DNA of 64,000 nt, from positions 59,909,585 through 59,973,584 of the forward strand of contig NC_060251.1 in NCBI RefSeq assembly GCF_921293095.1, read 5' to 3'. This document shows positions 7,023 through 36,659 of this stretch, piece after piece. The notes under the pieces were generated by a model that was given only the letters and a program-made list of their open reading frames with translations, ran no database searches and had not been told where the DNA came from. How positions within the stretch are numbered: the first letter of the stretch is position 1; every line of letters begins with the position of its first letter. The stretch is from Ischnura elegans. Lineage: Eukaryota > Arthropoda > Insecta > Odonata > Coenagrionidae. The translations under genes were made by a program, and so were the position numbers.

Positions 7023-8334
7023 TGTTCATGCTGAACAAAAAAGTAATGTAAATATCAGGAAATTAGTTTGTGGTCGAGGGAAAAACTCCAGAGTTGCAGC
7101 AAATTAATAAAAATTGTGGTTTAATGTGCGAAGCATTGCTGCAAAAAAATTTTGAGGAGGTTGTTTTGTAGCAGCATATTTGAAGGCATATAAGGCACAC
7201 CTTTTTCCAAAATAATATTTCAAAAATATTACCTGCATCTTATATGTGAAGGTTGGACCTCCATGGGTTGATACTGACTCACTTGTATTTATAACAATTA
7301 TATTTATTTCTTAATATTTATTATTCAATTGAAGATTGTTGTAGTTGGAATTTTTCTTATTAAGCTCATTACTATCGTGTTACATTATTTATTGTTCACT
7401 TATTATATTATTTATTATTATCGTTTTGCCCGCTTCAGCGATACCGAAGGAGTTGGGTGTATCAAGTGAGCTTGATCGGTCGATATCTTCCACTACAGTT
7501 ATATTGTTTACTTTTATGTCAAAATTAATATTTTTTGGTAATTGCATCAATGATTGTGCCACCTATTTGACTTTTCTGAGCCATAAAAATTAAAAGGGAC
7601 TAACTCAAATTGTTGGGGCCACTCCTTCGTTCAGACTTTTTTTTTTGCATGCCCTACTGAAGTGAGGGTGCATCTTCTTTGCCATCAAAATTGGTGCTTG
7701 GTGCTTCTAGAAATTATTTCTTCTACCACGAGTTAACTTAGTTTACCTTGCTGCATTTTTCCTTCTGTACAATTTAAACTCCCATCTGTACAACTGCTTT
7801 GCCAATGCTATTGAGGGAATTTATAAATGAATGTGGGGTGGAAATACAGTAGGAGCCTGGTTTAACGTGTGCTCATAATCCCTCGGAAATTACTCGCAAA
7901 ACCGAGTACTTGTTGTATCCGAAGGTGTGGAATAAACCCAGTGAAGTCTCATAATCATTGGCATTTGCAGTTTTTCTTTTCTTACTGCAGTATTTAACGA
8001 AGTTTAAAGGCTCAATAGTCATTATCAGGCACAATCTAGATGAGTATCAACATATTTTAAGAAAGAAACAGGGGATTTTCAATTTTATAAAATATTTATT
8101 CCCCCCATTTCGGTATTTTATTCCTGTTTTTGTATTTTTTGATTGCCGAAGAAAGCTGTAAAAACAGCGTAACTAGTTGGAATCAATATGTTTGGTATGC
8201 GGTGGAAGTTTTTGGATAATTTCGGAAATACATCATGCTGACAATATCAGTTTTGCAGAGTTTTCAAATGTGTAACTAGTATGTCAGTCAGTTGAGAAAA
8301 TTGGCCGAAAGGTTCACTGAAACACGGCATATAG
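7023..8334. other. Intronic stretch, nothing recognised
   Basis: AT-rich intron sequence of the gene ending at 9702. Hydrophobic short ORFs, such as that at 7345-7593, come from T-rich composition and have no coding support. Confidence 0.5.
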
Positions 8335-8496
8335 CTTATTAAAACAACTTGTCTGTTTCCACACTTTTATTTTTACCGACCATGGTTTCGGCAGCTTGTG
8401 CCATTGTCAAGCTTGACCTTGACAATGGCACAAGCTGCCGAAACCATGGTCGGTAAAAATAAAATAGTGTGGAAACAGACAAGTTGTTTTAATAAG
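8335..8496. mobile_element. Foldback element, 77 bp arms (family F)
   Basis: The arms at 8335-8411 and 8418-8496 are complementary except for a 2-base indel, with a 6-base centre. The arm core contains CCGACCATGGTTTCGG and TTGTGCCATTGTCAAG. Related foldbacks occur at 26443-26627 and 62431-62536, with half-copies elsewhere. The wording resembles the ends of Penelope-like elements, which carry inverted terminal structures, but that is an inference. Confidence 0.85.
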
Positions 8497-8569
8497 ATAT
8501 ATATCAAAGATTTCCACCGCATCACGCCGGACACTGTATCTTTTATTTTGAAACACGGCATGATTCGGT

Positions 8570-8907
8570 GGTCGAAGATATTTCTCCCCATTGGAAATGT
8601 AGTCAACTTCCGCTTTAATATCGAACCACTTATGGGCAGTCCTGAGGACCTTTGTTGACAAAACCACTTGAATAGTGCAGATTCCATTTGCAGATTTCCC
8701 TTGCCACAAATATTTTTGGTTGCTAAGTGTTCCTAGTTCGGCCACTGCTGCACAATTTTTATCTTTGTTCTTTAAAACTGTGAACAACATAAATGACGAG
8801 ACACCAAACCGCCACCCAATATCAGTCTTTGAAGTCCAGCTACTTTTGCACTCGTCTATAATTTTAATTTTGGTATTAAGGCCCAAATATTTACACTTCC
8901 CAGACAT
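8570..8907 (-). pseudogene. Tigger/pogo-like transposase N-terminus (CENP-B DNA-binding part)
   Basis: Starting from ATG at 8907 on the minus strand, the frame reads MSGKCKYLGL, then TKIKIIDECK, KTDIGWRFGVSS and TVLKNKDK. This is the first helix-turn-helix of CENP-B/Tigger transposases, in which a KTDIA-RFGVS-STL-ILKNK pattern is typical. Near 8690 the reading shifts frame to ALFKWFCQQRSSGLPISG, the second CENP-B helix-turn-helix (WF-Q-R-G-PISG). It runs into the start of a lysine-rich stretch and is then lost. The DDE catalytic domain is absent. The copy is frameshifted and ends beside the foldback at 8335-8496, so it is a dead fragment. Confidence 0.8.
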
Positions 8908-9639
8908 AATGCACTTGTGCAAACCACCTGATACTACTACGCCCCTGAGACTGAGTACACTCGGCCCCTCCAAGCGAGTAAACTTCACCCCTTACCCACA
9001 CCCCAACTTTCCATCGTCGTGTGATTGGGTGCATCCAGTCGTTGGAAAGATTCCTACGATTAAGACGTAGCCTATTATAGTGACGAAGCCAGCCAAAGTG
9101 GATTGGGGGAGGGGGAAGCTAACTCCCTCTCCCAATGTCATCTTTCTCCCATTCCCCTCCCACTGATAACTGGGCCTAACAAAAGAAGAACGTGAAATGG
9201 GAGCGAGCAGAGCATACTCAAGGCCGTAAATCACATAAATGCTTGGATGTTACTGGCTTTAGGTGTTGTAGGTCTGACACACATCTTGTATTTTTAGTTT
9301 CATAAACAGATAATGCAAATCACAATACCTAGTTAATGCTTGCTCAGCGGTGCATTGCCCTCGAGAAATATCTGTCGTAAAACCGAGCGTACACTGTAGA
9401 AGGAACTTTTTGACCTCGCTAAATCAAATTTATTTTACTTGTAAAACATAGGCCGTTTGGCGGTACAAAGACTATCACTCGCTAAAATGGGATTCTTGTA
9501 AAATGCCCCTGGCTAAACCGGGCTTCCACTGTAAGGTAAAATGCTGGAAAATTAAAAATCGAAATTTCATTATGAGCCCTGGCTCATGTCCAACAAGAAT
9601 GGACTGTTATGCTCATGGTCATTTTAAACTTTATTCTAG

Positions 9640-9702
9640 GAAGCAGAACATACCAAGTTGAATGAAGCAGCTGCTATTGAGGTTGTCGATCTTCGAAGAT
9701 GA
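9640..9702 (+). CDS. Terminal coding exon of an unrecognised host gene
   Basis: The acceptor TTTATTCTAG precedes 9640. The frame, in phase 0 with the exon at 6368-6470, reads EAEHTKLNEAAAIEVVDLRR and stops at TGA 9700-9702. Codons are typical of a real gene and phases agree across the intron. The 3' untranslated region then runs about 640 bases to the poly(A) signal at 10341. The protein ends in a short charged helix-like tail and I cannot name it. Confidence 0.65.
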   Translation, partial: EAEHTKLNEAAAIEVVDLRR

Positions 9703-10340
9703 GAAGTACTGATTTACTGCATCGTGTTTTCCTGCATAGAGATCAATGCAAACTCTCAACTCCATATGGGTTTGCATGTAATGAACTTAATCACACGGAT
9801 CAGTACAATGCATCTGATATAAAATGGAAACTAATTTTTAGCTTCTGCAGGTTGCCTAGTCATGATGGTTACTCAAGCCCTTTGTGTTATGCCACTTACC
9901 GCATAGAAAACGAAATAGCCATTCCAATGAGTTGATTTGTGTTGGCTTTCTGTGGTGATTGAAGTGTTGCAGCTTAATTACTTTATATTTTACTAATGGC
10001 TTTCAACAAAGCTGAATTTTGAAAGTGATCTCTGGGGCTGTGAAAAAAAATCCTTGAAATTATCTCTGGTAGGCATGTCGGTGACATAATATCAAAGTGG
10101 AACCTGACTGACGCTTTATGTCTCAATCCTGAGTTCTCTTGTCGTGTTCATCTATTAAGCTGTCTCAGTTTGGAGACAGTTTGGGAGAGAACTTCTTTCC
10201 TACTCTGTATAGCCTTCAACAAATTTGCCTTGAAAGACTTAATTTTGGCCTAGCATTTAAGAGAGCATTACATTTTTTGCATTTCAGTGTGTTACAAAAG
10301 TAGCTGAATTATTTTCAGGTTTGTACCTGATATTGTGATC

Positions 10341-10346
10341 AATAAA
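10341..10346 (+). promoter_or_regulatory. Poly(A) signal AATAAA
   Basis: AATAAA about 640 bases after the stop at 9702, followed by T-rich sequence. It is the likeliest end of the gene whose last exon is 9640-9702. Confidence 0.5.
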
Positions 10347-10359
10347 ATTGCTGCTTATA

Positions 10360-11840
10360 GAAAAATATAAATATATATTCATGGCCATTTTTAAGAGTTA
10401 GAACTTGCTTGATGCCTTGAATGAAACAATGATTAATTTTTTGAGTATTTATTTAACAATTTGTAATTAATGTGTGCTTAAATAATTGTTGTCTTATGTT
10501 CTGAAGTATTTCACTGAGGTGAATGTCATGTTGGTCTCAGTTTTAAAAAATGCATTAACTTTTAAAATTTCATCATGACCTCAAGTGTAATGTAAATAAT
10601 TATTAGGATGAAATATTTTTTTATGTCAGACAGTTTTGTCGAAGAGAAGTGGTCGTGAATTATCAGAATTGCATAGCAATAGATATTATTAAAGCCCATC
10701 TTTGGTTACTCATTGTTATGTGTATGTGGAAATGCATAATTGAAGTATTTTATTTTTATGGTTTATATTTCCTTTTTGCCATCTCACAACTCCTGGAGTC
10801 TTGTAATGATTTAAAAGAATTTATGAATTTGTAATTGAGTGTATGCTTTATAGAATTGCACGTTGTTTTCACGATTACTGTTAGATTGTGCTTCTTGTAT
10901 CAATCTTGGGGTTATGTGTTTTTATCTTACTTATTTTGTTGTTTACTCTGTATCATTACACATAAAGCCTGCAATAATGTTGCAGCTGGTTTTCACCGTG
11001 AGACCATGTTGAAAATTCCCATTCAAAACACCCCCACCATTTTCCATTAAATGGAATGATAATATTTAAAACCTGTGATGAATTGTTTTTTTAATACCTG
11101 TGCATTTTAGTTGACAACCATGGGTGATACATAGATACATTTTGAAAAGTTCTATATCTATGAGTGTAATTCTCATCACATTCAATGAGGATAAAGTATG
11201 ATTAATTTATTGCAAATGGACAACAAATGGAAGAGAAAAACCTAGAATATAACTCATTGCTGAATATTTTTCCTGCCTTTAGCTGGATTTAAGATACCAA
11301 ATGCTGTGAAACTTTGTCTGATCCTCGAAGCCTAAAAATTCTTCTTGATTGAAGGGTTAAAGAATTTAATTTATTTTTAAAGGGTCTTGTGTTTTTCTGT
11401 TATTATTAGCCTTAGACTATATCTACAGAAGAACACACCATAAATCAGCAATCTATCTGATATTGAAAACATTGACGTTAACCTGTTTCATACAGATGAC
11501 AGCTCCAGACTTCCACAGCCTAGGGTCTCAGATGAATGACCCTAATGGTACTGTGAGCCTCCCTTTCAACTTTCTTCCTTTTGTTTACTCTTCTTTTGGT
11601 TGCTAGCCATCTTGTAATGTGCTCCGTTTCCCTTCTCCGTTTTTGTCAAAAAAGTTTTTTCTGCAGGTTTCAGAAAAATCAGTGGTATTTTTTTTTCAAG
11701 ATTTTCCGAGTGTTAATCACCTTTGGTCATTGTTGCAGAATTTTTTGTGCTATTTGGATCCAGTAAAATAGGATTAAAAAAAAATATTGTTATAATATGT
11801 TTGTGCTTGCCAAAATTTTTCTGGATATTTTCATTTTGGT
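10360..11840. other. AT-rich intergenic stretch
   Basis: I see no exon with both a coding frame and splice sites. A weak candidate at about 11497-11560, after TTTCATACAG, runs into a stop and is not called. Confidence 0.4.
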
Positions 11841-11844
11841 TTGT

Positions 11845-14310
11845 TGATGCCTCTCAAAGTTCTGAAGACTTGTTATCCTCAATGAATTCACCTTTTTCCT
11901 CAAAAGGTAAGTGCGAGTATCCTTTTTTTTTCAAGTTTTCCCATTTTTAGAATGAAATAATGACTCATTTTATTTTTGTCATACAATGATTTTTTGAGGT
12001 ATTTTATCTAGTTTTCCTAGTGGTTGTAAATTTTTTGACCTCGGATAGTCATCTTCTCCTGAAATAAAAAATTCAAAGAGGTCTGATTTCGTCTTTGTAC
12101 TTACATTGTACTTATACCTTGTGCAACATTATTAGTTTTTTTTTGCTTTCATTCCACCTGTTCAATTTTTCTTGTATTGGAAACTAACGTAGGGTTTTAT
12201 TACATTTTCCTTCAGTGTATATCTCTTCTCTTTGAAGGTGAAGAGGAGAGCCTTATAGGGTGCAAGAGAAAATAACAACGAACTGCGACAAACCCAGGGG
12301 ATGAGGAAACACCTAGTCTTTCTGGTAAGTGGTTACATTAATATATTCTTGTAAAGTCAGAGTTAATTATTTTGCATGATAAAAAATAATAAAAACATTT
12401 TTCTTTACATTTTACAGCCTTGCAGAAAAAGCAACCAATGAAAATGCTTAATGAGGATGAAATATGTGTTCTAGCAATGGACTCGTCGGATGACAATTTC
12501 TTTTTATGGATCTTCATTACATATTGGTTCTGACATGGGAGAACATGACTCTGATAATGACGATGAACCATGCACGACCGAGGCATCAAGGGGGCACTGT
12601 TACATCTTAGGCTGCTTGGCCTGCTGTTCCCCCAGTGAATACCCTTGTCCTTTGTTGGATCCCTTGGTCTAAAAAAATTCCTAGTGGTATGACCATTAAA
12701 GACTACAATTCCCTTGCCTTTACAGGTTAGCTTAATGGTATTGTTATAAAGGAAACAGAGAAGAATGCAGAGTGCATATTTCTAAAAAAAACTTGTCGCC
12801 AAGTACAAGGATAATGGACTGGCGGACACTGAACAGAGAAGAGTTTGAGGTTTGGTTGGGCCTGCTATTCCATATGGGGGCTAATTGAATATCAGACAAT
12901 AGGAAAAAGTTGATATTTTTCAGCTTTAAGTTATTTCGCCAATTAATGGCGAGGGATAAATTTCTTGGGATATTGCAAGCTCCAATTTTGCGAAAAACTC
13001 AGAAGAAAATGAACCTTCTACTTCTTATCGCCTATACAAAGTCAGACCGCTCTTGAATTCCTTTCAGAGGTCAATGGCTACCTGTGTTTCGCCCGGAAGA
13101 GAATTTTATATTGACCAATCAATGCTGTTTATGCGAGGGCGATCGAATTTCCAGCCGTACATGCAGGGGAAATGACACAAGCATGGCATAAAAATGTACA
13201 AGCTCTGTGAGCCAGTAGGGTTAGTGCATTAGATGACTGTTTATGCAGGCTCTGGGGATAATGGTGTGGGTCAGTGGTGGATACAGATGGGGGGCGCGCC
13301 CCCCCCCCCCTTGCGGGTCCGCCTGTATTGCCGAACATTGCAAAACCACAATTGTAGCTTTTTTATATCATAAGATGGCATTGTCATTTATATGTTTATA
13401 ATCACTTTAAATAAAATTTTCATATACTTTGCCTGTGACTTGATCATATTTTATTACGATAAAAGTAAAGACAACTCAAGATATGTTGCGCCCCCCCCCC
13501 CTTGAGTTTTTTCTGTATCCGCCACTGGTGTGGGTGGATGTGGAGATGGGAACAAAGTGGTCCACAAACCTTTAGAAGATTTAAAAAATAAGTGGCACTA
13601 TGTATTTTTGAAAAATTACTGCAATAATGTTCCCCTATATAAGGATCTGATGAAATTCAATACATACTGCACTGGGGCCTCTCGTGTGAAGAGGAAAGGA
13701 TATCCTAAAGAGGTTGTTGCGCACAAGCTGGCTAAAGACCAGGTTGTTGCTCAATGGAGTGAAGAGGGCATTTGTGTCTTCTGCTGTAAGGATAAGAGAG
13801 ATGTGTCCCTTACATCCTCTGAGTTCAGGTGTTACCTCATACCTACTGAAAGGTCAGGCATAGGTAAACCCGAATCAGTATTGGAGTACCATAAGTTCAT
13901 GGGTGGTTTAGATCACTGCGACCAGTTGCTGTCCTACTACACCTGCCAATGCAAGTCCTTCAAATGTTATTAAAAACTTGCAATTGGTTTATTCCAAATA
14001 ATGTAGGTAGTCAGCTATATTCTGTACAACAAATTCAGTGGCAGCAAGAAGAGCTTGTACGACTGCAGAATAGAGGTAATTGAGTCCTTAATGTCTTCCA
14101 AAATACGTGCCTTGCCCCCATTCCCCCAACCAAAAAAGGGTCTCTCCCACTTTCCGGCAATAGCTGGTGCTGGAGAGAAGGGTATAAAACCACAAAAATG
14201 ATCTAGAGTGTGATACTCGAAGGGACTACGAAAGGCAGTAATTTACATCTGCCCTGACTTTGAGGGCAAACCTGGACTTAATCTTGCACCCTAGCTTGAA
14301 TCCATGAATC
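11845..14310 (+). pseudogene. Decayed piggyBac-type transposase gene, apparently with introns
   Basis: From about 12830 the piggyBac pattern can be followed through frameshifts and stops: WRTLNREEFEVWLGLLF; FYIDQSMLFMRGRSNFQPYM, which holds the DxS region before a conserved GR; HKHGIKMYKLCEP; then after the MITE, KDLMKFNTYCTGASRVKRKG, ICVFCCKDKRDVSLTS and YHKFMGGLDHCDQLLSYY, the MGGxDxxDQ signature. The C-terminal cysteine-rich part is recognisable to about 14305 (ICPDFEGKPGL). Upstream, three acidic coding pieces join in phase: one ending at donor 11906 (SSEDLLSSMNSPFSSK), 12238-12324 (donor GTAAGT, ending DEETPSLS) and 12418 on (LQKKQPMKMLNEDEICVLAM). All joins are phase 1. In-frame stops, for example in 12238-12324 and near 13170, make it non-functional. 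Confidence 0.8.
13272..13527. mobile_element. 256 bp hAT MITE (family A), nested in the piggyBac relic
   Basis: Terminal repeats CAGTGGTGGATACAGA and the complement of CAGTGGCGGATACAGA match at 15 of 16 bases. The flanks carry an exact 8 bp duplication GTGTGGGT (13264-13271 and 13528-13535), the hallmark of hAT transposition. Poly-G/C runs lie just inside both ends. It has no coding capacity. Removing it restores continuity of the piggyBac reading across the site. A related copy is at about 18285-18475. Confidence 0.95.
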
Positions 14311-14845
14311 TCACGAAAGGATATGAAATTTCTGTTGTTTTCTTATGGGGGAAAAAAATATTTCAAGGCTATTTTTACTGTACACATTATGCTAGTTTTT
14401 TTTAAAGTGATTTCAAAACTTTAAATGCCACATGTTTACTACGAAAATTAAATACTTCACAGAATTTCTTAAATTTCAAAATTTCATGTACCAACTCATT
14501 ATGTATGTCCACATAGTTAAAAGAATTCTTTAAGTTTGCAACATTTTCCATTGTGAAGACTTATTCTGCATTTTAATTCTTTTTGCATGTTTGCAAATGC
14601 AATATGAAAAAAAGTTTCGTCAACTCTTCATCAATGAAAGTTGTGTGTAAAGCATTCATTTGAAAAGCACTCAAATTATTGATTGGACGATCAACAACAA
14701 AAGTACTTTAATTTAATGCTCTTGAAATTAATGGATGCAATATCTTTGAATTCTAAATTTATATGACAATATGACTTAGCAAAAAAATTTTAGCAAGGGA
14801 TAGAAAAGCATCTTTGGTAATGCGGGTTGCATACAACAGAAGTCA
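14311..14845. other. Noncoding AT-rich stretch
   Basis: Probable 3' flank of the piggyBac relic. No TTAA-flanked terminal repeat could be assigned here. Confidence 0.4.
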
Positions 14846-14976
14846 CCCAGACGGCACATAATCCTCCGTATCTAATTCGTATGCAGATAGTATCCATTGA
14901 CGAAAAGCGACGGAGCGGTAGTCAATGGATACTATCTGCATACGAATTAGATACGGAGGATTCTGTGCCGTCTGGG
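14846..14976. repeat. Inverted repeat, 56 bp arms, 19 bp loop
   Basis: The arms 14846-14901 and 14921-14976 are complementary at 55 of 56 bases. The loop is GAAAAGCGACGGAGCGGTA. It is a young-looking hairpin of unknown family; the sequences outside the arms are not complementary. Confidence 0.9.
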
Positions 14977-16270
14977 CATGTTATGATGCGGGTGACAACC
15001 ATAAATTTCAGAATAAAAAATATTTATTTTTCAGCGAAAATGGGTACAGTAATAGTAGAATTATATTATTAAGCCTAAGATATACAGAAATATCTATGTT
15101 GTACAAAAAAAACTCAATTTCCGGGGAAGTTATCATCTCACGGTGCCGCATTGACAGGGTAAAGCTTTGGAAAGGTCTAGTCACTCATGAGGGTCCTTGG
15201 CTTTAACTATGGTAAATATCTGCATTCTGCTTTTCATCTATTCTGAAGATGTATCCAATTATAGTTTTTATGCCAATTCAACTCTTCATAAATATGTACT
15301 TGATTTTTGGATGAGACTAAAAAATTTTGAGTTATCATTGTATTTTTAAGATGAAAGGCTTACTTGACTATCCTAAAATTCATCCTTACCCATCCTCTTT
15401 TTTCACTTGCTTTGTCTTTAATGTGTTTTGCTTAAAAAAAACATTCCTTCTTAATATTTGCTCCAACAATGTCTTTCCCTTATTGCAATTCATCTCAAAC
15501 TTGTTCCCCAAGTTTGGTAAACTCTTGTTCATTCCTTCCTCTGTCACTCCATGTTATGTTTCCCATTCATCTCCTTAGCATATCATATATATATATGAAT
15601 AGAGAGGAAAGGAACGAGGAAATCGTAGACATGGTGCATGATTTGAGGAAACTTCTAGAGGAGATAAGGAGGAAAGAAATGGTGTGGAGTGACCCAGTTG
15701 TGTCGAGTGATGATGAAAGATAATGGAGAAAAACTAAATAAATTTACGGGATGTTTTTAATTAAATAATTTTAGTTGCAATATTTATGCGAAATTCAAGA
15801 ACAGAAAAGTGCTGATTACCATATTACGTTACTCATTGCTTGAAAGCCATGTTTTTTTTATAAAAAAATATAGCTTTGAAACTATCATATTTGTTTTATT
15901 TAGTTATCAAAATCATGTAAGACCTTTTCATATCTAAAATGGATATAAAAAAAGATTTGCTAATGCCTGAATATTTAGACCTCCCTAAAATTTGATAGGA
16001 TGAAAATCTTGTTTTTCTCTGGGATTAAAAAAAAAATTTATTGCCTCTGCCTTAGTGCCTCTGGAATCTCCCCAAATTTGGGAGGATTCCATGCCTTCCA
16101 GACTCTCTGTTTTATCATGTAACATGTACCATCCAAGTAGCCGTCCCTACACCCACAATATTTTACAATTGGCTCATTTAGTAATACAATCTGGAGATTG
16201 GTTTGGATGGTTGAGAGTAGAACTCATCCCAGAGTATAATTATAAAAAATAACTAGTAAGCTACTGGAAT
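14977..16270. other. Mostly noncoding stretch
   Basis: AT-rich with low-complexity runs, for example ATATATATATAT near 15585. The only coding-like piece is the charged ORF at 15594-15723, listed separately. Confidence 0.4.
15594..15723 (+). CDS. Short charged coding-like segment, possible terminal exon
   Basis: The frame reads MNREERNEEIVDMVHDLRKL and continues with EEIRRKE to SSDDER and a stop at 15721-15723. AATAAA follows at about 15738. The composition (alternating acidic and basic, leucine-spaced) suggests a short coiled coil and is quite unlike the surrounding chance ORFs. An acceptor-like CATCTCCTTAG lies upstream near 15570. It could be a last exon or part of an unrecognised transposon gene. 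No family is recognised. Confidence 0.3.
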
Positions 16271-16274
16271 TCCA

Positions 16275-16432
16275 TTTTCAGCATAGGGGGCCAATACCTT
16301 TCCCTGAGCTGACCTGGAATTTTGAGGACATATGTTTGGGGGACAAGGCTTCACATGGGATTTGAACCCTGGAACTCTTGGTCAGTTAACCAACGCTCCA
16401 CCTGTTGTGGTATCTCTATCCACTACCACTCA
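16275..16432 (-). mobile_element. tRNA-derived SINE copy (family S1)
   Basis: On the minus strand GAGTGGTAGTGGATAGAGAT is followed after a spacer by GGAGCGTTGGTTAACTGACC and then GGGTTCAAATCCCATG, a near-perfect box B. The 3' part ends at CCCTATGCTGAA. Related copies are at about 24618-24672 and 52050-52205. The promoter boxes look tRNA-derived, but no tRNA cloverleaf is intact. Confidence 0.7.
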
Positions 16433-17306
16433 AATAACCGAACAAAATAATCTGAAAAGTGTAATTCTCATAGTCCACCCTGGAAGTCCTGAAGTTCCTC
16501 TGAAATGAAGGCCAAACTCCATCTGTGACTGCAATTTAATACGAGAAAAAAATCTGAGAGATTGCCGACAAGGAATTTAATTCACCTAATCAAGCCTGGC
16601 AGCTGCTGAGCCAGAGGCCGTTGTAAATTGTGTCCCTCTGGTCAAATTGAGTGGGAGTCTGGAAAATAGTCGGTTCTAGATCCGAGATTCGACTCCAATG
16701 AAATAATATTTCACATGGTCGGTGTCAGCTTTCCTAGCTACCATCTATAATTGGATAGCCCATGATGAGGTAGCGTAATACATATAATATTGTGTAAGTT
16801 ACGCTCGGGATAATCCGTTTCACTGAGAATTTTTAATGAAATTTCTTTGGATGATGAGAAACTTCCTGAGCCCACTCTAATACCGAATACTACATCAATT
16901 TTACCAAATAAAAGTATATTTTTTCACCCTGTGAATCGTTAACTTCACTGCTGCTTCACGAAATAAGTGAGAACGTATTTTCTTTTTTCGTCAGCACCAG
17001 TTACAACTGTCTCATGGCGAGAAATGTAGGCAATTGGCGACATTCGTGTAGTGTTTTTTTGTTATTTAATACATAAAATGCCCCTATTGGGCCTTATGAC
17101 GCACGATTTTCTGTCAATCATTTCTTGTTACCTCGAACTTAGGAATTAAATGTGGCGCTTTTTTCAACTTGCCACACTCCTCAACTCGATGGCTGCAATG
17201 CAATTTAGCAGCTTTAATTGCAAAGAGAAAAACTTTCGCTCACGTTTGACAAGATAGGAGAAAGGAGAGAATGCAGCCAATCGATACTTCGCATGCCCGT
17301 CAGTCG

Positions 17307-17319
17307 GTTGCTAAGCAAC
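17307..17319 (+). promoter_or_regulatory. RFX X-box (GTTGCTAAGCAAC)
   Basis: GTTGCTAAGCAAC fits the RFX consensus RYYNYY-N-RRNRAC at every fixed position and is a near-perfect palindrome. It lies 118 bases before the CFAP276 start codon, within the usual window for X-boxes of ciliary genes in flies and worms. RFX factors switch on genes for ciliated sensory neurons and, in many animals, for motile cilia. The match to a ciliary gene directly downstream makes function likely; binding itself is inferred. Confidence 0.8.
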
Positions 17320-17436
17320 AGGCTATTTATCGAATACGTAGAGGAATTTTTCGGTCCTTCGAGGTGCGCGATTGATAAATCGCTCTGTTAAATTGTAGTA
17401 TTTTAAATCAAGTAAAATGGTATTACAGTGAGGAAA

Positions 17437-17511
17437 ATGTACGGGGGGTACCAAGTGGAGCCAAACGTATTTCATATTGGAAAGAAAGGCGTGTACGTCC
17501 TAGATGATGAG
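17437..17511 (+). CDS. CFAP276: CFAP276 exon 1 (coding part)
   Basis: Encodes residues 1-25, MYGGYQVEPNVFHIGKKGVY then VLDDE, and ends at donor GAG/GTACGC in phase 0. The N-terminus is the least conserved part of the family. Confidence 0.75.
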
Positions 17512-20500
17512 GTACGCATTCATTAATTTAATTCATTCACTGTTTATTGGATGTGCTTTTGTTCTCAAACATAACCTAGTATGCATTATAACTTACTGTA
17601 CGTGCTCTAAGAACATTTTCCTACCACAGGACATCTTTGCTTGGCATACTCTCTGTCGCCTTAATGATTTTCTGGCTTTCGCGTCATAACATCTCGGTTC
17701 GCTACCGTCAACTTTTGATACCTGAATTTATGTGTGAATGCAAAGCTTATCAAGTACCCTTTACATTTAACTCACTTACTGATTACACAAAAAAATGAAC
17801 GTAATGATAACAGGACCGTATTATAAATCTTGTCCATTTTTTAAGCGTCTGAGGTTGGGGGGCTCATGCCTCTGTGTCCCCCTAAATCCGCCAACTGATA
17901 CTTTGATTCTCATTCAATACACGAGAAGGAAACGACTAACAAAGCTCAAGGGAACGAAATCTCGGAAAACTGTGAAGTAGATATTCGTAGTGTATTTGTC
18001 CAACTAACTCAGAAGTTCAAAATATAGTATTATTACGATTTGAAGCAATATGTCGTAAATCATATTTTTACATGAGTTTGAATAACTGCTACGGACCATA
18101 TCCCTATACTATACAGTATTCAGCAGAATAGATTCGTTCAATCAGACCAGAAATCGTAATTCATTCAAATATTTTGGCAGATGGAAAGGAAAGATAAGAT
18201 AAGACCAAAAAATCTTCCCCATTAAGCTCTCTTCATGCTCCATCAAGATTTAAGTAAGAATATGTGAGAGTTGCGCGCATTGCCAAAATTGCCGAACCAC
18301 ATTGTAACTTTTTTATTTCATAAGATAGCCTTGTCTTGTATATGTGTTAAATCAGTTTAAATGAAACTTTTCATGTGAATAAATTACTTTTCATTACGAT
18401 AAAAGTAAAATCAGCTCAAGATATATTTTTCGCCCCCTCCCCTTGAGATTTTTCTGTATCCGCTTCTGCTGGTAGCTTCAAAAGTAAGTGACGCACAGTG
18501 GTCGGATATGCCGTGAAGTCGGAGAAAAATCCCTTGAGGGCGCATGTTTTGGATTTTTGAGATAAAGTTCGGTGTTAGGGGGTTTTGATACCTGCTGAAC
18601 TCGATTATGACCTCAAATTACCCAGTGGGGAAAGTTGTTTAAAAATTTTTATAATGATAGTCATCGAAAATGTATCACAAGGCACCACAGTTTTCGTTTA
18701 AACGTGTTTTAAGAGCCGCTGCATTTAATTTCAACCTCAAATCAGACCAATGGCGAACGCGTAGACTTTTTAATGCGGCGCTGTTCAAAACGCTAAAATC
18801 GTGACGAAAATACAGCCGAATTTTTCATGCACGGAAAAATACCGCGTAAATTTCGTCAGCATACTATTGTAGAGGGATTATGATTGGGAGGAGGCATGAT
18901 TTGAAATGTGCGATCGGTCTTAACCTTCGCGAAGAAATGGCCAGTACAAAACATGTCAAGAAAAGACTAAGACTTTTATCCTAATTTGGAGGTGGAAATG
19001 AAGCCTTTTTAGACAAGTTAAATTGTCGCGCTTTGGGAATCAGGCTGGTAGATCTATACCCTTTCGAACTGCAATGTTAGAATTTCAATATATTTTAATA
19101 AAAGATCCCGAGCTTTTTTTCGACTCTGGCATTTTCGATCACGGTGGATTGAACGGAATTGAAAATTTGGAATAAAACGGATTAAAAAACGGAATAATAC
19201 TGGTCCATTTATTTTTCATGCTTGATCATAATCGACAGTAAAATATTGTAACCAAAAAATAAGGTTAGGGGAAATTGAAACACTCGCTTGGTTAGGGTTA
19301 AGGAGAGACGGGCATCTCATCACTGCATTCGAACGTCGGTCACGATGCCTTCATGGGCGTGGTCGGCCAGGGGGACTTCTCGGAACAATTAACACTTTGG
19401 ACCAAAAAAATGTGAGTGATAATCAGGGTGCAGCCTTTTTAAAGCCTCTCTTGGCTATGCCGGCCGAAGGGAATCCACCCATACGGATGCCATGACCGAT
19501 TAGCGCCACGGAATATGTATTCAATCCGTGATTTTAAGAAAATCTTGAAATGATCTTTCGGATCACTGGAAATGCATCACACTCCGCAGGCCGCATATAA
19601 AATTATAAATTCCCGTACCAGATTTAAGGCTCGCTATAGATGAAGTGAAAGTTTGAAGTATAAAGAAGATAAAGAATAGGATCTATATAGGGTGGAATGT
19701 TATCAGATGTCAAGTCTGAATTCCAGTCTATTCCATCTCCTTTTGCTGCTCCCCTCTACTCGAGGGTGGGCAGAGTATAATCTTTAATTAAAGTAATACT
19801 TATTTGGGGGTTCATACTGTATTAAACTTAGTTCCCCTTTCTTTCAAAACTAAACATATTTCTTATTTAAATTAATTAAGTTAGTTAAAATAGGATTTTC
19901 CAAAAACAAAGTATAATATTTTTTCCGCAGAGTACCTATGCCACATCGCGGCCTGCGGACTCTTCTTTTCTTCCTTTTCTCTTCGGGATTTCCTGTCCAT
20001 CAGGAAGCTGCAAGGAAAAATACAAAATTTTTCTGCAGAATAGCGGCCTGGAGACTCTTCTTTTTCTTTCTTCGGAGTGTCTTCCTCCTTATTCTTCGGC
20101 GTAGCTTCTCTCTTCTATCTTCTCACATCAGGATTTTCTAATTAATGTGTTATTTATTCAGGAGTTTCTGTGGAGAATGAATGTAATATCTATGGTGAGA
20201 ATGTTAGTGCATCTCTAACAATGGACCCAACATTTCTGTTTATTTCCCGCATGTGGTTCAAGATGGTGTATCTTATTGTTTCAAACTTAATACACTTCTC
20301 AATTCTGTGTACAACCGAGTCCTCTTCCCCACATTTTGGACAGTTTCCATCCATCCTCTTCTTTGTTATCTTCTCGTAGGCTCTGAAATTTCCATGGCTA
20401 CTAAGGATTTGAGTTATTTTTGAGTTTGTGTGAAATCTGAAACTTTGTCTAATGGCAACGGTTGGGAAGATTAGGTTGGTGCATCTTCCTTTTGATGAAC

Positions 20501-23500
20501 TTCTTCCCACTTCTTCAGGGTCTCTTTTCTTAGAATTCTTTTTAATTTCTTGACATTTTCCAGTTCATGTCAAAATATCTCCAGTCTTCTCCTGTCAACC
20601 ATTTAATTTGAGCCATTCTCTCTAACAGTATATTTCATAGGTGGGGTATTAGCGATAATTTGCTGGGTATCAGTGGAAACAGTAGAATGGGCGCCGGTGA
20701 TCGAAACGTCCGCTGAGCTTCGTTTTCTGACGATTCTTAAGCGGGTCGCTTTGAATCCCCATACGTCGCATCCATATGTAAGTATGGGTAATGCGACTCT
20801 TTCATATATTTGGTTTAATGATGGAGATCCGAAAATTACGCGGCAGTATTTTCTGCGTGTGCCTGAAAAGTCAATTTATCGTCGATGACGATTCCTAAGT
20901 ATTTAACATGCTTACATCTTGCGAGTTGCTTCCCATGAAGATGCACAGTTGGATTCCTCTTTAATTTCGCACCTAGTACCACGGGTTGACTTTTCTCCGT
21001 TGATAGTTCTAATTTATTTTTAAAGCTCCAATCTTCCAAGATAGTAATGGATAGTAATTTGGCTCCAGTTTCAATTTCAGCTTTTGAATTTGCTGGTACG
21101 GTCAGAGCCAAGTCATCGGCGTATGCAATTAGTTTCCTCGCATTTGGGAGTTATTGTCTTAAGAATTCATTGATAATAAGGTTACAAAGGGTAGGACCGA
21201 GGACTGATCCTTGGGGGCAACCCTTGGTTGCAATTTTGCTTACCTTGGTGTGTTTTGATTCGAAGACAATTTTCCTGTTTTTAAAGTAACTGCGAATTAA
21301 TTCCATGAGTTTATTAGGTGTGTGAATTCATCTGATGCCAGTAGGAATCAAAATTTCTTATGATATTATTGTTGAAAACATACAATTGTTAAACTTCATA
21401 AACTTTTAACCAAGCGCAACGATTGGCCGCGAGTTTTCCCTGTTTCCGGATGCTCTGGGCAACTAATGACGTCGAATGCCTTGGCTGCATTTGCCTTTGC
21501 CTTTTTAAAAGTGTGGTGAATCTTGTGGGACTGGAAATATGTTCAAGCCGGGCCTCGGGTGGACCATCCCTAGTCTGCAGTGACGCTTTTCACTGAGGTA
21601 GAGAGCCCCCTCATAATCGAACATGGAAATCTTCGTATGATACCTTGACTGAATATTTTGCAGGTTGTGAGCGTCGGCTCCGATTATGATCGCCACTGGG
21701 GGAGGAAACTGCCTCCGTGGGAGAGGCTAAACCAGCATCACACAATCAACAGCGCCGCACATGACTATCGACTTAGGGGGAAGAAGCGAACAGGGGACGC
21801 GTTGGACTTCGTGCTCAGCTCCGTCTACGACCACTCCACACAGCTCTTCCCTGAAGACGAGGAGATATACCGCCAGAAGGAAAATGTCGAAGGATCAACG
21901 AGGTAATTGTATTTAATTTCAGTCATCAAAACTATTATAGTAGTGGATTCTCTAGTCGGCGTCCAGATGTGTTGTCACCCGCCGCGCATTAAATGTGTTT
22001 ACAAATGTCTTCACTGATGGGCAGAGCGATCCGATTTACACGGGGAAGAGTATGCTATAAATACTGGGTTATTAAGAAATAATGGTGCGCTTTTGAACAT
22101 GGTTTAAATGAAAAGAGAATAACCAACAGTTTATGATTTTTCTTTTTTGAACTTGAGGTCTCAAATTGTTTTTTATCTAATTAATAAAGTTGAATCTGTT
22201 AGCCCTTAGTCGCTCGACAAATGTCCAAACGATAGGTACTCAATTTGTTTCCAAATATTAGTACATGGGCGTACCCAGCGAGGGGCAGGAGGGGGAAGCT
22301 GCCCCCTCCCCCCTAGAAGCAAAAATCGCAAATGTCTTTAAGGAAAATAATATTTTTTCAAGCAAATAATTTTAAAAACTAATAAAGAGCTGTTACAGTT
22401 TCCTTAAATTGTTGATTTCATTCACCTTTTCCATGCTTAAATCTTACCTACATCTTGAACAACCATGGCTTCCCTCCCCTAGTTTTGATCCTGGGTACTT
22501 TCTATGTTAGGAGAGGAATTCTATGTTAGCGTGTAAAGGAAAGTCTAGCGATGGTAATGTACTTCACGGCGCGGAAATAAGGATATTTAGGAAGGAAAAG
22601 AAGAAAAACTTTAGATACTCGATGAGGGTATGACGGAGAAGAGGAACGAGAAGTAGAAAGAGAGAAAAAGGAAGACGGAAGTTCATGGCATGATGAGCAA
22701 GAAGAGAAATAGGAATTACATTCCTCATTTTCTCTCGCTCCTGTAAAAAATTGACGTCGTGGCATGGTTGTCTTAATTTTTTATCTATCTCAACTCCACC
22801 TGACATTTTTTTGCTACTACACGTATTCTTTCCTGCTGTCCACCGTGCAAGAGCCAATAATGAATGTGGTCGAAAGCTATGTTTCAAAGAGTACAACTTC
22901 AATGCAATAATGTAGCAGCAATCCAAAGTTTGGTATCAAACAGATTACTTCCACTTCTTGGGATTTAAAGATTTAATTCGATTATTAAAAAGATCGAAAT
23001 AAAATCTTAGCCAAATTCTGGTAGTAAGAGGCATGGTACCGTGGCGCAGCAAGGGGACAGGGGTTTGGGGGATAAAACCCCCACCAGAGCTTAGAGAAAT
23101 TTTTAAGTTTAATCCATTTTACTTATTTGGATCAGTATTACTTATAAAATAGTATTAAGTTTATCAAATATCCCTCATAAATCCGTAAAACTCGCCATTT
23201 TGAACCATTAATCTTAAAATTATTCTGGAGGAGGGCCCTCGCAACTCCTGCTTACCTTGATGGGTATGCAATACCCCAAAACCCGTAAGTATTAGTTGCG
23301 CCTAAAACCCCCTTTAGCCTTAATTCCTAGCTGCGCCTCTGGCATGGTAAGCAAGGTGACTGGCTCATGGTACCTATTCTTGTGTTTGGCACAGAAATAA
23401 AAATACCCAAGGGACAGGTACAAAAACCCTTAAAATAATATTCGCAGAAATGAGTTTAGAGCATGCTGATAAAAAATCTCACCCCCTGCCAAGCACACCA

Positions 23501-26500
23501 GAGGAGAATAGATACCATGCAAATTCTGATAAAAAGACATATCCAATAAAGTGAGAAAAACTAAAATCGCACAGTATACAAATTTTTAAAAGTTATTTTT
23601 CAGCATCTTCAAGTTGGTAGCTATGGCGAAAGACGTAGTGAAATCCATTTTCATCCCCTTTTAAAAGAGAAGTTAGCATAAGAATTCAAGGATAATTTTT
23701 TAGGTTCAAGGTTCAATAATTAAGGCTCAAGGATAATTAACTTTGCTGCCTACCAAGGCAGTGCAGATCATTGTAGACAAACGTAAGGGATACCGCGCGG
23801 GTAACATTATGTGAGAGCGCCGACGTGTCGGGTACCGACTCGCTACCCATTATCACGGCTACTCGTCGGCTAAACGTCGCGACGCGTCGGCGCTCTCATA
23901 CAATCTTACCCGCGCGGTATCCCGAGAAGAGTTTTTACATGTTGTTCGCCGGGAAAGTGTGAAATCTTACAAACGTAAGGGTTTTACGGAAAACGATTTT
24001 ATGGACGAGAACCTGGACCATTCCTTCTTTAGAGAAGAGAATCCTAATCTATTTACGTTTTCCGTGGTGAGGATTCTTATAGAACCGAGCACAGGCAATG
24101 GTTGGACATAATGTGTACCTGCTATCGTCAACTGATGATATTACAAAATGTAATGAATCCGGTCGTGTGGATAAGTAATTTTTTATATAAAAATTTGAGG
24201 AGGCATTTCACTGAGCTGATCAGGAAATATTTATGAACACAACGAAGGAATACATTATAAGATTAGAGGACTAATGCGTTACTTATTTAAGGACTAAACC
24301 TCACACAAGAGGGTGGCTGGTAGAGAGGCATAGGTGAGTCAAGGTTACCCAATATCGTCGTTACTGCTCAACTGTATGCGGAATATGTTTTATGAGGACA
24401 TTTTCACACACACTCAGTAATTCAACCTTAAGATTGATTTGAATAGGTGAGGGTAAAGCACACCCAAGACTTAGCCAGAGGCTTTATTTACTACACCGGG
24501 ACTAGCCACGGAGATAACTTTACGTTGCGGAAGTCACCCATCACAATGCACAAATTTTCCAAAAAACCCACGGAGAAAAAAATCATTCGCCTTGACTGGA
24601 ATTAGCCACAGGCGTTTGAATATCACAAATTCAGGGTATGGGGGCAGTAATCTTTCCCTGGGCCATCTCTCACTGAATTAATTCCTTCGCGCTTCTTCCC
24701 TCTAACCCGCTTACTTCATTCTTCCTTCTAACGCGGCTTCAAGCCATACAACCTCCCCTCCATGCTCAGTGCTTGCTCCATACAAACCCTCTGTCTCCTC
24801 TGTATCTTATGTGGAAGTTTCCCCACCTCGCCCAACATGTCTGGCACTCTCTGTTCCCCTTTCTTTCTGTCTACTCCACCTTCTCCATTTTCCTCCGCGC
24901 CCAAATCTCGAACGCTTCTAGTTTTTTCTTTCCTCTTAACTGAAAGTCCCTTTTCCGCTCTGTAAAGCGTTACGCTCCAAAGAAAACTTTCCACTTACCT
25001 CTCTTCAAAGTCTTGAGGCCGTTTTACACGGTACACGGAATTGCGCAGTCTGACGTACGTGTGAAAGCGCAATCAAAATTGCGTCGTGTAAAGCGGTGAA
25101 TTGCTAGAACACATGCGAGAATGAGTGGATGCGAGACGGCAAAATAGCCCCTGTTCTAATTTCGTTCATGCATTCGCGCAATTCCACGCCATTTTAGAAA
25201 TTAATGCAGCTCTAACCTGCGCAATTCCGTGTACCGTGTAAAACGGCCTTTACAAAACGGTACTCTCATTCGCCTGGTAAGCTAACAATTGTCAGTTTAC
25301 GGGACGATGCACTGATGACAATTTTATCATGTTGCTGAAATGACAATAATATTGCTTTGGTATTCATGAACCTGAATTGCCCACTCAATTGTGGTATGGC
25401 CCTGATAATGTGTCTCGATTTCTGGTCCAGGATATTTTCAACGAAATCGAAATGCATATCTTCGATCGAAAATATTGTAGCAGTATCGAAGGTAACCCTG
25501 GGGTGTTGTATTGTAGATGGATCAAGAGCCATAAAAATAACTGGGTTATCTGCAATTAAGTTTAACAATTTGTAAGCGGTTACTAACACGTACATAACGA
25601 CCGATTACATCTGAAAAAGGGAATATTTACTGATTCAAGTGCAGTGAATATTTTCATGAGGTCATCGACTTAGTTCTATAATTCTGCAGTGAAAATATTT
25701 CACGATACATGAAAATGCTTAAAAAAGTACTTCAATTATTTTTCGGTAATTTTGGACAAGTCACCAAATGTTTTTTAGATTTTTTATAAAATATAAAAAT
25801 TGGCCACAATTTTATAATAAAAAATCCACGCTGTGTATGAGAAAAAAATGACGATCTATTATAGTCTCCAGCAGGCACGCAAAATATCTTTCCATCATCA
25901 AGGCAACGTCAAATCCGGAATTGAATGTCTGCGGGGAGCAAAGGGAATGCTTGTATCTTTGATATGAGCTGTCTTTGACAACCGCAATTTGTTTAATGTG
26001 TTAGCGGCAGTATCGGGGGTTTCGGATCTCCCATTCACGTAGTTTTAAAATATATTCACACAAAACCTTGCGCTAGTTTAATTTTATTGGTATTTACATT
26101 CATTATTTGCATTAAAAATTAGATAATTTTCTAATACAACCAACAAAAAAGTATTTCATGGAGGAATGACTAGGACATTTTATGGCACCGACTGCACCGA
26201 AGAATGAAAATCCGATTCACAGTAAGTTGGTTAATGAAAGAGGGAAAATACAATCGACGGTCATGGCTTATTTTCTGCTTGTGACATCAGCCGAAAAGAA
26301 ACGACTACAACACGAGATTTGCAATAAGGCACCAAATGATGGAGGCTGATTTGACCCTACTTAAATTAGGTCAAGATAGTATTTTAAAGCAGTGGATACA
26401 ATTATAACTAAATCAATTTACTCTAGCCTTAATGGGTTAAACTTATGATTAAAAACTTTTGGGCTATGTCGCCGCGTCAATGCTTTGGGTGGCCCCAACG

Positions 26501-27284
26501 TTTCCCGACCGATGCTGGTCGCTTTTTCAAGGGATTATGGAGAAAAAGCGACCAGCATCGGTCGGGAAACGTTGGGGCCACCCAAAGCATTGACGCGGCG
26601 ACATAGCCCAAAAGTTTTTAATCATAATGACGAGCACCCGCGAAAGTTTTAACGAACGGTTAAACTTAGTTTAAAAATTTTACATGCTTAATATAACACA
26701 CTATCCGATGTCCTAAAGGTGGATAATGTGCACATAGCGGTTCTTAGGAAAAATTGATCAATTCTCGTCTCGCAAATTTCGTAGTCTTGTTAGCATCTTA
26801 ACAGCTCCCCAGAAGATCTGGGTAAATTAATTTTAGCTGCCTTTTCATGAATGAAATAATCTAAAAGCACTTTTTAAATATCATCCTCATATTTTTTTAA
26901 ACGTGGATTTTTCAAACCAAGCTGTGAGGTTGATGCTTCATCAAATACTTGACAAGAAAATTAAAAAAGTTTGTTTTAATAATAATTTTTCATATCTTGA
27001 TGTCTTTTTCCAGGGATGCAATTTTTTTCAGCGGCGCAGATAATCTCAGGGTTGCAAAATATTCCAAGGAGACGAAGTATTCCAGGGAAGAAAAAGACTG
27101 CCGGAAACAAAAGAAGGTGGAAGAGAAGGTTATCTGCGTCAATCCCAGCTACGAGGTTGTTATCGGGGGCATAAAAGAAAGGAGAAGCCCTCACTCAGTT
27201 CGTTTGAACTTGAGTTCTCATCACATGTCCCGAACAGCTGGCGGATATGGACGGAAAGTCGATGGGAGTTTCTACGCGCCGTGA
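17437..27284 (+). CDS. CFAP276: CFAP276 (C1orf194) homologue, three-exon gene
   Basis: The exons join as 17437-17511, 21664-21902 and 27014-27284, 585 bases, giving a 194-residue protein. All splice sites are GT-AG and phases agree (0, then 2). The family is small ciliary proteins; in vertebrates CFAP276 is a microtubule inner protein of axonemal doublets and is about 170 residues. Matching features are PWERLNQHHT near residue 44 (family PW-x-RLN-T), DALDFVLSSVYDH near residue 72 (family DLDF-L-LYNH) and the C-terminus GGYGRKVDGSF (family GGY-RK-DG-F). There is no signal peptide or membrane segment. Start: the ATG at 17437 is in frame; an upstream ATG at 17417 closes after four codons. An X-box lies 118 bases before it. 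Codons in exons 2 and 3 are more GC-rich than the flanks. Introns are full of transposons but the frame is intact. Confidence 0.85.
17815..17895 (-). mobile_element. Partial hAT MITE (family B)
   Basis: AACTTGTC-like sequence, TTTTAAGCGT, GGGGGG and an end CCCCCTAAATCCGCCA match the right part of the full copy at 60071-60347. The other end is missing. Confidence 0.6.
18285..18475. mobile_element. Degraded hAT MITE (family A)
   Basis: It shares the interior of the copy at 13272-13527 (TTTCATAAGAT, TTACGATAAAAGTAAA, CTCAAGATAT) and the right end TTTTTCTGTATCCGC. The left terminal repeat is lost and no target duplication remains. Confidence 0.8.
18476..19919. other. Intron 1 sequence of CFAP276, unassigned
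   Basis: Contains several GC-richer pieces (for example 19270-19520 with GGGTTAAGGAGAGACGGGCA) that look like old repeats, but I cannot place them in a family. No coding exon seen. Confidence 0.35.
19940..20065. repeat. Partial tandem duplication, period about 95 bp
   Basis: GCGGCCTGCGGACTCTTC near 19948 recurs as GCGGCCTGGAGACTCTTC near 20043, each followed by a T/C-rich run. It lies in the 3' flank of the LINE fragment and may be its 3' untranslated end. Confidence 0.65.
20160..21330 (-). mobile_element. 5'-truncated R1-clade LINE, reverse transcriptase end
   Basis: Reading the minus strand from about 21325: SYFKNRKIVFE; KGCPQGSVLGPTLCNLI (RT motif with GCPQGS); an in-frame stop near 21150; YADDLALTV (catalytic YADD near 21111-21125); then LGAKLKRNPT and KYLGIVIDDKL. 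Further on come SSADVSITGAHSTVSTDT, typical of R1-like proteins after the RT, and a cysteine knuckle (CPKCGEEDSVVHRIEKC) near 20330-20280 before a stop near 20190. The order RT, thumb, C-terminal zinc knuckle fits R1 and relatives. The 5' endonuclease part is missing, as usual for truncated LINE insertions, and stops and frameshifts make it dead. It lies in intron 1 of the CFAP276 gene, opposite strand. Confidence 0.85.
21664..21902 (+). CDS. CFAP276: CFAP276 exon 2
   Basis: The acceptor AATATTTTGCAG with a branch-like CTTGACT precedes it; the donor AACGAG/GTAATT follows. It is 239 bases, in phase 0 and out phase 2. It carries the PW-ERLN core and the DALDF-YDH segment, the best conserved part of the protein. 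Confidence 0.85.
22262..22496. mobile_element. hAT-like MITE, ~235 bp
   Basis: The left end GGCGTACCCAGCGAGGGG and the complement of the right end CCCCTAGTTTTGATCCTGGGTAC pair as GTACCCAG with G-rich inner runs. The interior is A/T-rich with no ORF. The target duplication was not resolved. Confidence 0.65.
23039..23341. mobile_element. hAT MITE, 303 bp, with 8 bp target duplication
   Basis: Terminal repeats share GGCGCAGC near each end (23042 and the complement near 23336). The 8 bp GCATGGTA is present at both 23031-23038 and 23342-23349. It is noncoding and lies in intron 2 of the CFAP276 gene. Confidence 0.9.
23787..23923. mobile_element. GC-rich inverted-repeat element, ~40 bp arms
   Basis: Both ends read inward GGGATACCGCGCGGGTAA, then ATT, then GAGAGCGCCGACG, about 40 bases with a few differences. 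The CpG-rich arms stand out from the AT-rich intron. No target duplication was found at the arm ends; ACAAACGTAAGGG recurs at 23778 and about 23969. Confidence 0.8.
24618..24672 (-). mobile_element. SINE family S1 tail fragment
   Basis: ATTCAGGGTATGGGGGCAGT then CTTTCCCTGGGCCA matches the tail of the S1 copies at 16275 and 52050. Confidence 0.6.
25016..25249. mobile_element. MITE with perfect 33 bp terminal inverted repeats
   Basis: The arms 25016-25048 and 25217-25249 are exact complements (AGGCCGTTTTACACGGTACA and on). The interior is 168 bases, with further CGTACGT and GCGCAAT palindromic pieces. No ORF. A fragment of the same family occurs at about 32345-32426. Superfamily not assigned. 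Confidence 0.9.
26443..26627. mobile_element. Foldback element with 86 bp perfect arms (family F)
   Basis: The arms 26443-26528 and 26542-26627 are exact complements by eye, with a 13-base centre AAGGGATTATGGA. The core (GTTTCCCGACCGATGCTGGT, CTTTTTCAAG) follows the same plan as the foldback at 8335. Perfect arms suggest recent formation or conversion. Lies in intron 2 of the CFAP276 gene. Confidence 0.95.
27014..27284 (+). CDS. CFAP276: CFAP276 exon 3 (terminal)
   Basis: The acceptor GTCTTTTTCCAG precedes it. The split AGG codon is completed by its first base. It ends FYAP and a TGA at 27282-27284 after the conserved GGYGRK-DG segment. A lysine/glutamate-rich middle (KETKYSREEKDCRKQKK) looks like an insertion relative to the shorter vertebrate protein. 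Confidence 0.85.
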
Positions 27285-27591
27285 GGACCTTTGATCCGTA
27301 CCACCAGATTTGGAGCTGTCACTCGATGCAGGGATTTACTTTCGCCTTCTGAGGGTTGGAATCCATTTTAGGCATTTTTCATGGTAGAGTTGGTTTTAAT
27401 CGATCACGTAATACATGTCTGATGCTATTAACCAAGTGACTTAAAGTTCGATGGACAAAAAGTTAATCAACACTTGTCACTGAATCATGTATTTAGCATT
27501 GTGAGTGTCTTTGTTGACATATTAAATATTTATAGGTGTTAAGTTTTGCCATCCAAGCTTCTAGTGACCAAATAATGTTTAGGAAATGTTT

Positions 27592-27597
27592 AATAAA
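27592..27597 (+). promoter_or_regulatory. Poly(A) signal AATAAA, CFAP276 gene
   Basis: First AATAAA after the stop, about 308 bases downstream. A second AATAAA lies at 27770. Confidence 0.5.
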
Positions 27598-27599
27598 TG

Positions 27600-28930
27600 G
27601 ATTTCTTCACATTTCCTTTCCGAAAGTTGGTTTGAATTCGGTGTTTATAACTCAGTTGTTGAATTTATAGATTGGGGAAAAACAATTCTTACACATATTT
27701 TCATAATGAATTTTATGCTTTTTTAAATATTTAAACCCTGATTCACCACCATTGTCGCTAAAAACGAACAATAAAGAACATATTTAATGTTTTCTGGCAT
27801 GCGTCATTTTCAAAACGAAGCGTAAGATATTTGATAACTCATGCTCCATTTGCTTTCAGTGTCAGCTTAATCACCTAAGACTACCAATTTTCCGGATATT
27901 AACTATTCTTTAAAATTTCATATTTTAGGAGTCAAGTATGTTTGCGGCCCATAAATTTATATTTGATACTGACTGTAAAAATTCTTACGGCATTTTTAGA
28001 ACTTTTTTTAGACTCTTTCGTTAATATTTAATTCCGAAAGTAGTTTGAAATCACCGGGGATATTATTGCAAGATAGTATAAGCTGCTAATGTCACACAAT
28101 TACTCAGAAATTAAGTAAAATTAAATACACAGAAATTTACTACAATGCGAAAATTGCTGGAAGAGACTATTTCGTTGTCGAAGCTTGAGGACAAGAGAGC
28201 CTTAAGAATGAGAAAGTTTTCTCACTCCAATGAACTTTATTTTATTGAGGGTTAATGATGTAGTATGGAGGAAATTTCTTTTTTTATGATTCATTAAATG
28301 CAACATAAAGTACAATTGACTTTATTTTTGGGCTATGTTTTTGGAATATATTGGAGCTGCGTTCTTCTCAATGATAAAAAATAATCCCAATAATTTATTT
28401 GTGGGTTATATTTATTACTATTGAAGCTGTTCTACCGGTTAAGGTAGGTTTACATGGTGCATATTTCGAAGCATCTCGCCTGTCCCCTTCCGCTTAATCG
28501 GACTTCCCTCTTCGATTCCCGTTGAGACGAGTTCCCTTTCATTAGATGAGTTACATTTATAATTACGTAAAAATGTATCCATATTAATAAATAATTCCCG
28601 GATATAAGAAAATTTTTGGCTGACGTTTCGACGGAACACTATTCCATCGTCCTAAGGGCAGAAATTCTTTAGTAAAAAAAAATCCTCGATCCTCAGGTAA
28701 GTCCTCGGAGCTTTTCTTACTCAGCTAGAATACCGAGAATTATTTATCTACATCATTCGTCGATTAAACACGAAATTTTATCTTTATTACTCTTTGTCTT
28801 CATAGAATTCCTAAATTTTCATCAACATTTATGGTACTTAACAATAAGATAATTTCAATCACTTTCTTTACATACCCTCAATATCAATATCATAATAATA
28901 ATGCATTTGACGAGGCGTAAGTGTTTTTTT
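27600..28930. other. AT-rich intergenic stretch
   Basis: No coding exon seen. 28612-28668 (GACGTTTCGACGGAACACTA, then ATCGTCCTAAGGGCAG) resembles one arm of the family F foldbacks. Confidence 0.4.
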
Positions 28931-28939
28931 ACTCGCCGC

Positions 28940-29195: not shown

Positions 29196-29221
29196 GTGAG
29201 TATATACTTTTCCAGCTATCT

Positions 29222-30094: not shown

Positions 30095-30168
30095 ACACTC
30101 TCTTCCCGGTCATGGTTGCGAAAGCACCATGTCATAATCAAAGCGTAGGAATGTGAAAACTATAAATA
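30095..30168. mobile_element. Half-copy of a family F foldback arm
   Basis: CCGGTCATGGTTGCGAAAGC then ACCATGTCATAATCAA follows the arm at 8375-8411 with substitutions. The opposite arm is absent. Confidence 0.5.
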
Positions 30169-36656: not shown

Positions 36657-36659
36657 TAG

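Follow-up and report, generated by a model that had tools for sequence, protein, structure and literature searches.

An exact 13-mer X-box, GTTGCTAAGCAAC, lies directly upstream of a CFAP276 homologue in the genome of Ischnura elegans, and we consider it, with a probability of roughly 0.86, to be a functional proximal X-box through which RFX factors drive CFAP276 expression in cells with motile-type axonemes. The site was located by pattern search in a 64-kb stretch of DNA (hereafter the window, meaning the whole stretch that was analysed), and the features of the promoter and the gene are collected in Table 1.

Table 1. Coordinates, in the window, of the X-box, the neighbouring motifs and the CFAP276 exons
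Feature	Position	Strand	Basis
CCAAT pentamer	17277..17281	+	Motif match only; 55 on the window's plus strand
Initiator-like TCAGTC, possible transcription start	17300..17305	+	Motif match only; 108 on the window's plus strand
X-box (RFX site) GTTGCTAAGCAAC	17307..17319	+	Exact match, fits fly consensus
Forkhead-type motif ATAAATA (RYMAAYA), 4 bp 3' of the X-box	17324..17330	-	Motif match, suggestive only
CFAP276 exon 1, 25 codons, donor GAG/GTACGC	17437..17511	+	Frame, donor, register with known CFAP276 chains
CFAP276 exon 2, DUF3695 domain	21664..21902	+	Pfam match
CFAP276 last exon, stop TGA at 27282-27284	27014..27284	+	C-terminal match; in-frame acceptor alternatives at 27032 and 27050

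Form and position of the X-box

The 13-mer is a palindrome, formed by an inverted pair of GTTGCT half-sites with a 1-bp spacer, and 117 bases separate it from the CFAP276 ATG (17437-17439), which makes it an X-box near the start of a ciliary gene, the distance being measured from the ATG. A first-pass annotation of this DNA had reported an RFX-type site directly upstream of a CFAP276 homologue, and both the exact site and the identity of the gene were borne out; its statement that the site closely precedes the ATG also stands, with the count corrected from 118 to 117 bp. The description of the site as consensus-perfect holds for the two Drosophila consensuses, RYYNYYN1-3RRNRAC and GYTRYYN1-3RRHRAC (both given in PMC2375033), but not for the RFX1 biochemical consensus GTNRCCN0-3RGYAAC (quoted in PMC3414849), which the 13-mer misses by one mismatch on either strand. 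This mismatch is the T that ends the left half; both halves end in T, where the preferred base is C. Our claim is thus limited to the fly X-box consensus and does not extend to every published one. When up to two mismatches to GTTGCTAAGCAAC were allowed, the sole further match in the window was the same place on the opposite strand, and as two such matches are common in shuffled sequence (36 of 100 shuffles), significance is limited to the exact or strict form.

Similar X-boxes are known from Drosophila dRFX targets, in which inverted GTTGC-type half-sites with a spacer of 1-3 bases form palindromes before the ATG of ciliary genes, as at 17307, and in which palindromic X-boxes are over-represented; a CFAP276 homologue was not found among the targets in the available text of that study (PMC2375033). 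The same source states that an X-box before the ATG does not by itself predict RFX dependence, which is predicted by interspecies conservation. Human X-boxes typically lie very near transcription starts, with a robust window of -500 to +500 (PMC5838959).

Identity of the downstream gene

The CFAP276 homologue was modelled as three exons (17437-27284) encoding 194 amino acids. DUF3695 (PF12494, E 1.5e-14) is the sole Pfam family detected in the stop-masked plus-strand frames of 17401-27002, and the spliced model matches it with an E value of 4e-16 and 59.1 bits, above the curated cut-off of 27. Five distinct CFAP276 chains of solved structures match the spliced protein (E 3.1e-11 to 6.3e-8): model residue 35 aligns with residue 35 of four of the chains and with residue 38 of the fifth, and model residues 35-112 correspond to residues 35-112 of the 7ung chain. 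The C-terminal tail constitutes a second matching stretch in four of the five chains, the last exon also matches when searched separately, and the length of the protein is similar to that of the known chains (194 versus 168-172 amino acids). Exon 1 searched alone gave no match, so that placement of the ATG rests on the reading frame, the splice donor and the register. The matches to the known chains show that 25 codons is about the length to be expected of exon 1, and they favour the acceptor predicted at 27014. The gene may also carry a 5' untranslated intron.

Other features were noticed within and around the gene. An upstream reading frame of four codons (17417-17431) lies in the leader and ends 5 bases before the main ATG. 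As judged by eye, intron 1 contains reverse-transcriptase-like frames (20190-21327, minus strand) and intron 2 a long, near-perfect inverted repeat (26449-26617) resembling the palindrome of a mobile element. Downstream, no Pfam domain was found on either strand of 27001-36602, and the 30001-32000 interval has a G+C content of 53%, versus 32-44% in the other 2-kb bins; it may be another gene's promoter.

The mouse name of CFAP276 is 1700013F07Rik. Among the titles and abstract openings listed, none reported an X-box of CFAP276/C1orf194/1700013F07Rik, and a genome-wide target list may hold one. With regard to function, CFAP276 of mouse sperm attaches to the doublet ribbon on the B-tubule side (PMC10663601), and C1orf194 has been called a putative motile-cilium gene (PMC11317154) and is one of 11 candidates giving ciliary phenotypes in zebrafish crispants (PMC9844136).

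RFX domains and further ciliary-type genes elsewhere in the genome

RFX DNA-binding domains are encoded in the genome, with five matches at four places, the weakest match having an internal stop. A search for FAM183 (CFAP144) recovered exons at two places, one of which is C1:150244329-150244547, and a copy of the identical 13-mer is found at C1:150244772, about 225 bp from this exon (locus L032). This copy precedes the ATG of a SPATA6 homologue by 161 bp (PF14909, E 1.1e-20, first exon). The SPATA6 protein serves the connection between the head and the tail of sperm. The FAM183/CFAP144 exon, the 13-mer and the first exon of SPATA6 all lie within about 800 bp (L032:4550-5352), with the two flagellar-type genes arranged tail to head around one X-box.

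Other families provided less. A tektin gene on C5 has a near-X-box, GTTACCATGGCTAC, which differs from the strict form by one mismatch and lies 129 bp before the ATG. In 20 loci, the chosen sites left aside, half-site scores of at least 21 appear about 0.05 times per kb, and in the window about 0.1 times per kb, so that approximately 0.3-0.6 such sites are expected in the 6 kb examined upstream of tektin genes; taken alone, the tektin site is weak support for X-box use. The strict site was found in none of the 21 tektin loci, which represent at least four genes and include an identified first exon for only one of them. Similarly, no strong X-box was detected in the approximately 640 bp upstream of a gene of the B9-C2 family on C10, which by eye resembles B9D2, a miss that carries little weight, as an acceptor-like sequence before the ATG suggests a possible 5' untranslated intron and the promoter may therefore lie further away. 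When the positions of gene families were compared by eye with X-box coordinates, FAM183 matched once, and tektin, B9-C2 and TPH not at all.

A forkhead motif next to the X-box

In Drosophila, sites for Rfx and Fd3F are found near starts, and paired sites combine an X-box with a forkhead motif at most 50 bp away (PMC3414849), an arrangement which the CFAP276 promoter resembles. X-boxes and forkhead motifs conserved near the start have likewise been described for HEATR2 (PMC4168999). The X-box and the adjacent ATAAATA motif might thus constitute the fly Rfx/Fd3F motile-cilium code, with dual control and expression mainly in chordotonal neurons; this would refine the functional X-box, as the two explanations are not mutually exclusive, and we regard it as possible but doubtful. 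The SPATA6 promoter also carries a forkhead motif, GTAAACA, 31 bp from its X-box. The window contains 224 such forkhead motifs versus 225 expected. Against the paired reading, the probability that a randomly chosen position has a forkhead motif at most 4 bp away is 0.036, and it rises to 0.29 for a distance of 50 bp. Four of the 14 13-mer places to which no gene was assigned have a forkhead motif within 60 bp, which is the background rate, and none was found near the tektin site. Moreover, one of the two half-sites is often degenerate in the targets of fly Fd3F (PMC3414849), unlike the palindrome before CFAP276, in which both half-sites are strong. Rfx/forkhead pairing at CFAP276 is possible but not clearly beyond chance.

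Frequency of the 13-mer and of the classical X-box in the genome

The promoter stretch 17100-17511 matches only itself in the 1.72-Gb genome (in a search that skips very common words), and hence the promoter is not a scattered repeat. The exact 13-mer occurs at 50 places, and its reversed control at 14. The strong enrichment that these two counts would suggest was dropped, as Markov models of order 0 to 3, with a background of 331,452 bases that includes loci chosen for the 13-mer, expect 21-46 places; genome-wide over-representation of the 13-mer is at most mild, and most copies may be chance occurrences or repeats. By contrast, the classical 14-mer X-box, GTTGCCATGGCAAC, is present at 38 places versus one for its reversed control, or about 8-15 times the Markov expectation of approximately 3-5 places (5-9 on both strands). 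X-boxes as a class are thus clearly kept in this genome, whereas the 13-mer variant is far less over-represented than the classical form. The two share the outer half-site GTTGC...GCAAC but differ in the spacer, which is one base in the 13-mer and two in the classical form, and in the inner position, where the 13-mer has T/A and the classical form C/G. As the 13-mer is near its random frequency, the case for it is made by its position beside a ciliary gene.

We examined 20 of the 50 places (L030-L049) at 10 kb. Four belong to one repeat family, one lies next to a mariner-like frame (by eye), one is the site before SPATA6, and no gene was assigned to the remaining 14. The repeat family (L033, L034, L037 and L045) carries a perfect X-box palindrome, its members being approximately 82-93% alike. 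A 120-bp stretch beside the box is 77% similar between a 14-mer place (L052:406-525) and a 13-mer place (L041:4962-5074), and may represent a second repeat. Ten frames, each taken from a different 13-mer locus, returned no match in Pfam; these frames were drawn from 64 ATG-started frames (14 13-mer loci and eight classical loci). Eight of the 38 classical 14-mer places were examined (L051-L058, 811 bp each), and no first exon was recognised at any of them. Scoring by codon usage, with 1509 tektin codons as the training set, proved useless, the true SPATA6 exon scoring among the poor ones.

The presence of the same variant before CFAP276 and SPATA6 could also be read more ambitiously: GTTGCTAAGCAAC with its one-base spacer, and not the classical 14-mer, would, in this lineage, mark a sub-programme of sperm-tail or motile-axoneme genes read by one particular member of the several RFX proteins, possibly with a downstream forkhead partner. 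We consider this improbable.

Chance occurrence of the site

Two hundred dinucleotide shuffles of the window served as the chance baseline. The exact 13-mer appeared in none of them. The strict class GTTGCY N0-3 RGCAAC, which was picked post hoc, after the site had been seen, is found at one place in the window versus 0.05 expected per 64 kb (10 of the 200 shuffles reach one), and the wider class GTNRCY N0-3 RGYAAC at two places versus 0.715 expected (30 of the 200 reach two). The loose pattern RYYNYY N1-3 RRNRAC is at background (81 versus 85.5 expected) and uninformative. With a hand-weighted half-site score, four places in the window reach at least 22, and one, the 13-mer at 17307-17319, reaches 23.

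These figures bear on the reading that the palindrome arose by chance and is inert, other elements driving CFAP276. It draws support from the near-random count of the 13-mer in the genome, from the repeat family that holds four of the 20 examined copies, and from consensus-fitting X-boxes located away from known genes. For example, the second wider-class place in the window, GTCACCAAGGTAAC (46206-46219, minus strand), fits the RFX1 consensus fully, and so better than the 17307 site. No gene is known next to it, and Pfam found no domain on the plus strand over 36601-46202. However, computed from the shuffles, the chance of a site within a given 200 bp, such as those before a given ATG, is about 0.00016 for the strict class and about 0.002 for the wider class; in addition, CFAP276 belongs to a class of genes under RFX control, and the identical 13-mer precedes the SPATA6 homologue. 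An inert palindrome is therefore quite improbable.

It is most unlikely that the 13-mer serves a divergently transcribed upstream gene instead of CFAP276, a reading which the palindrome allows, having no direction, but which we rejected on Pfam scans that yielded only two transposase traces below cut-offs on the minus strand (7800-17401) and a piggyBac-like remnant on the plus strand (7801-17402), genes without a Pfam domain escaping such scans. Overall, the Pfam scans covered the plus strand up to 46202 and the minus strand over approximately 7800-17401 and 27001-36602. The piggyBac-type transposase remnant (DDE_Tnp_1_7, E 4.7e-32) is located at 13542-14009, with about 3.3 kb between it and the X-box, and the weak traces, from Tc5 and CENP-B-like transposase DNA-binding domains, lie in two frames at 8607-8886 (minus strand), below the curated cut-off.

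Proposed mechanism and significance

The functional X-box remains the best explanation. Under this explanation, an RFX dimer would bind the inverted GTTGCT half-sites near the transcription start, and bound RFX would switch on CFAP276 in cells building motile-type axonemes, namely sperm and possibly chordotonal sensory neurons. The CFAP276 protein is one of the microtubule inner proteins of doublets. RFX control of CFAP276, as the first-pass annotation had proposed, is supported by the gene, by the motif and its spacing, by the RFX domains that this genome encodes and by the 13-mer before SPATA6; from these we infer binding at the 13-mer, the direction of its effect and the cell types concerned.

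The CFAP276 X-box is very probably genuine, though an ordinary case of the control of cilium and sperm-tail genes. It adds a new instance to an arrangement already known, not a new kind, and it implies no new mechanism. If our reading is true, the ancient ciliary programme of RFX includes CFAP276 in Ischnura elegans, and the logic of X-boxes can be read from a single unannotated genome.
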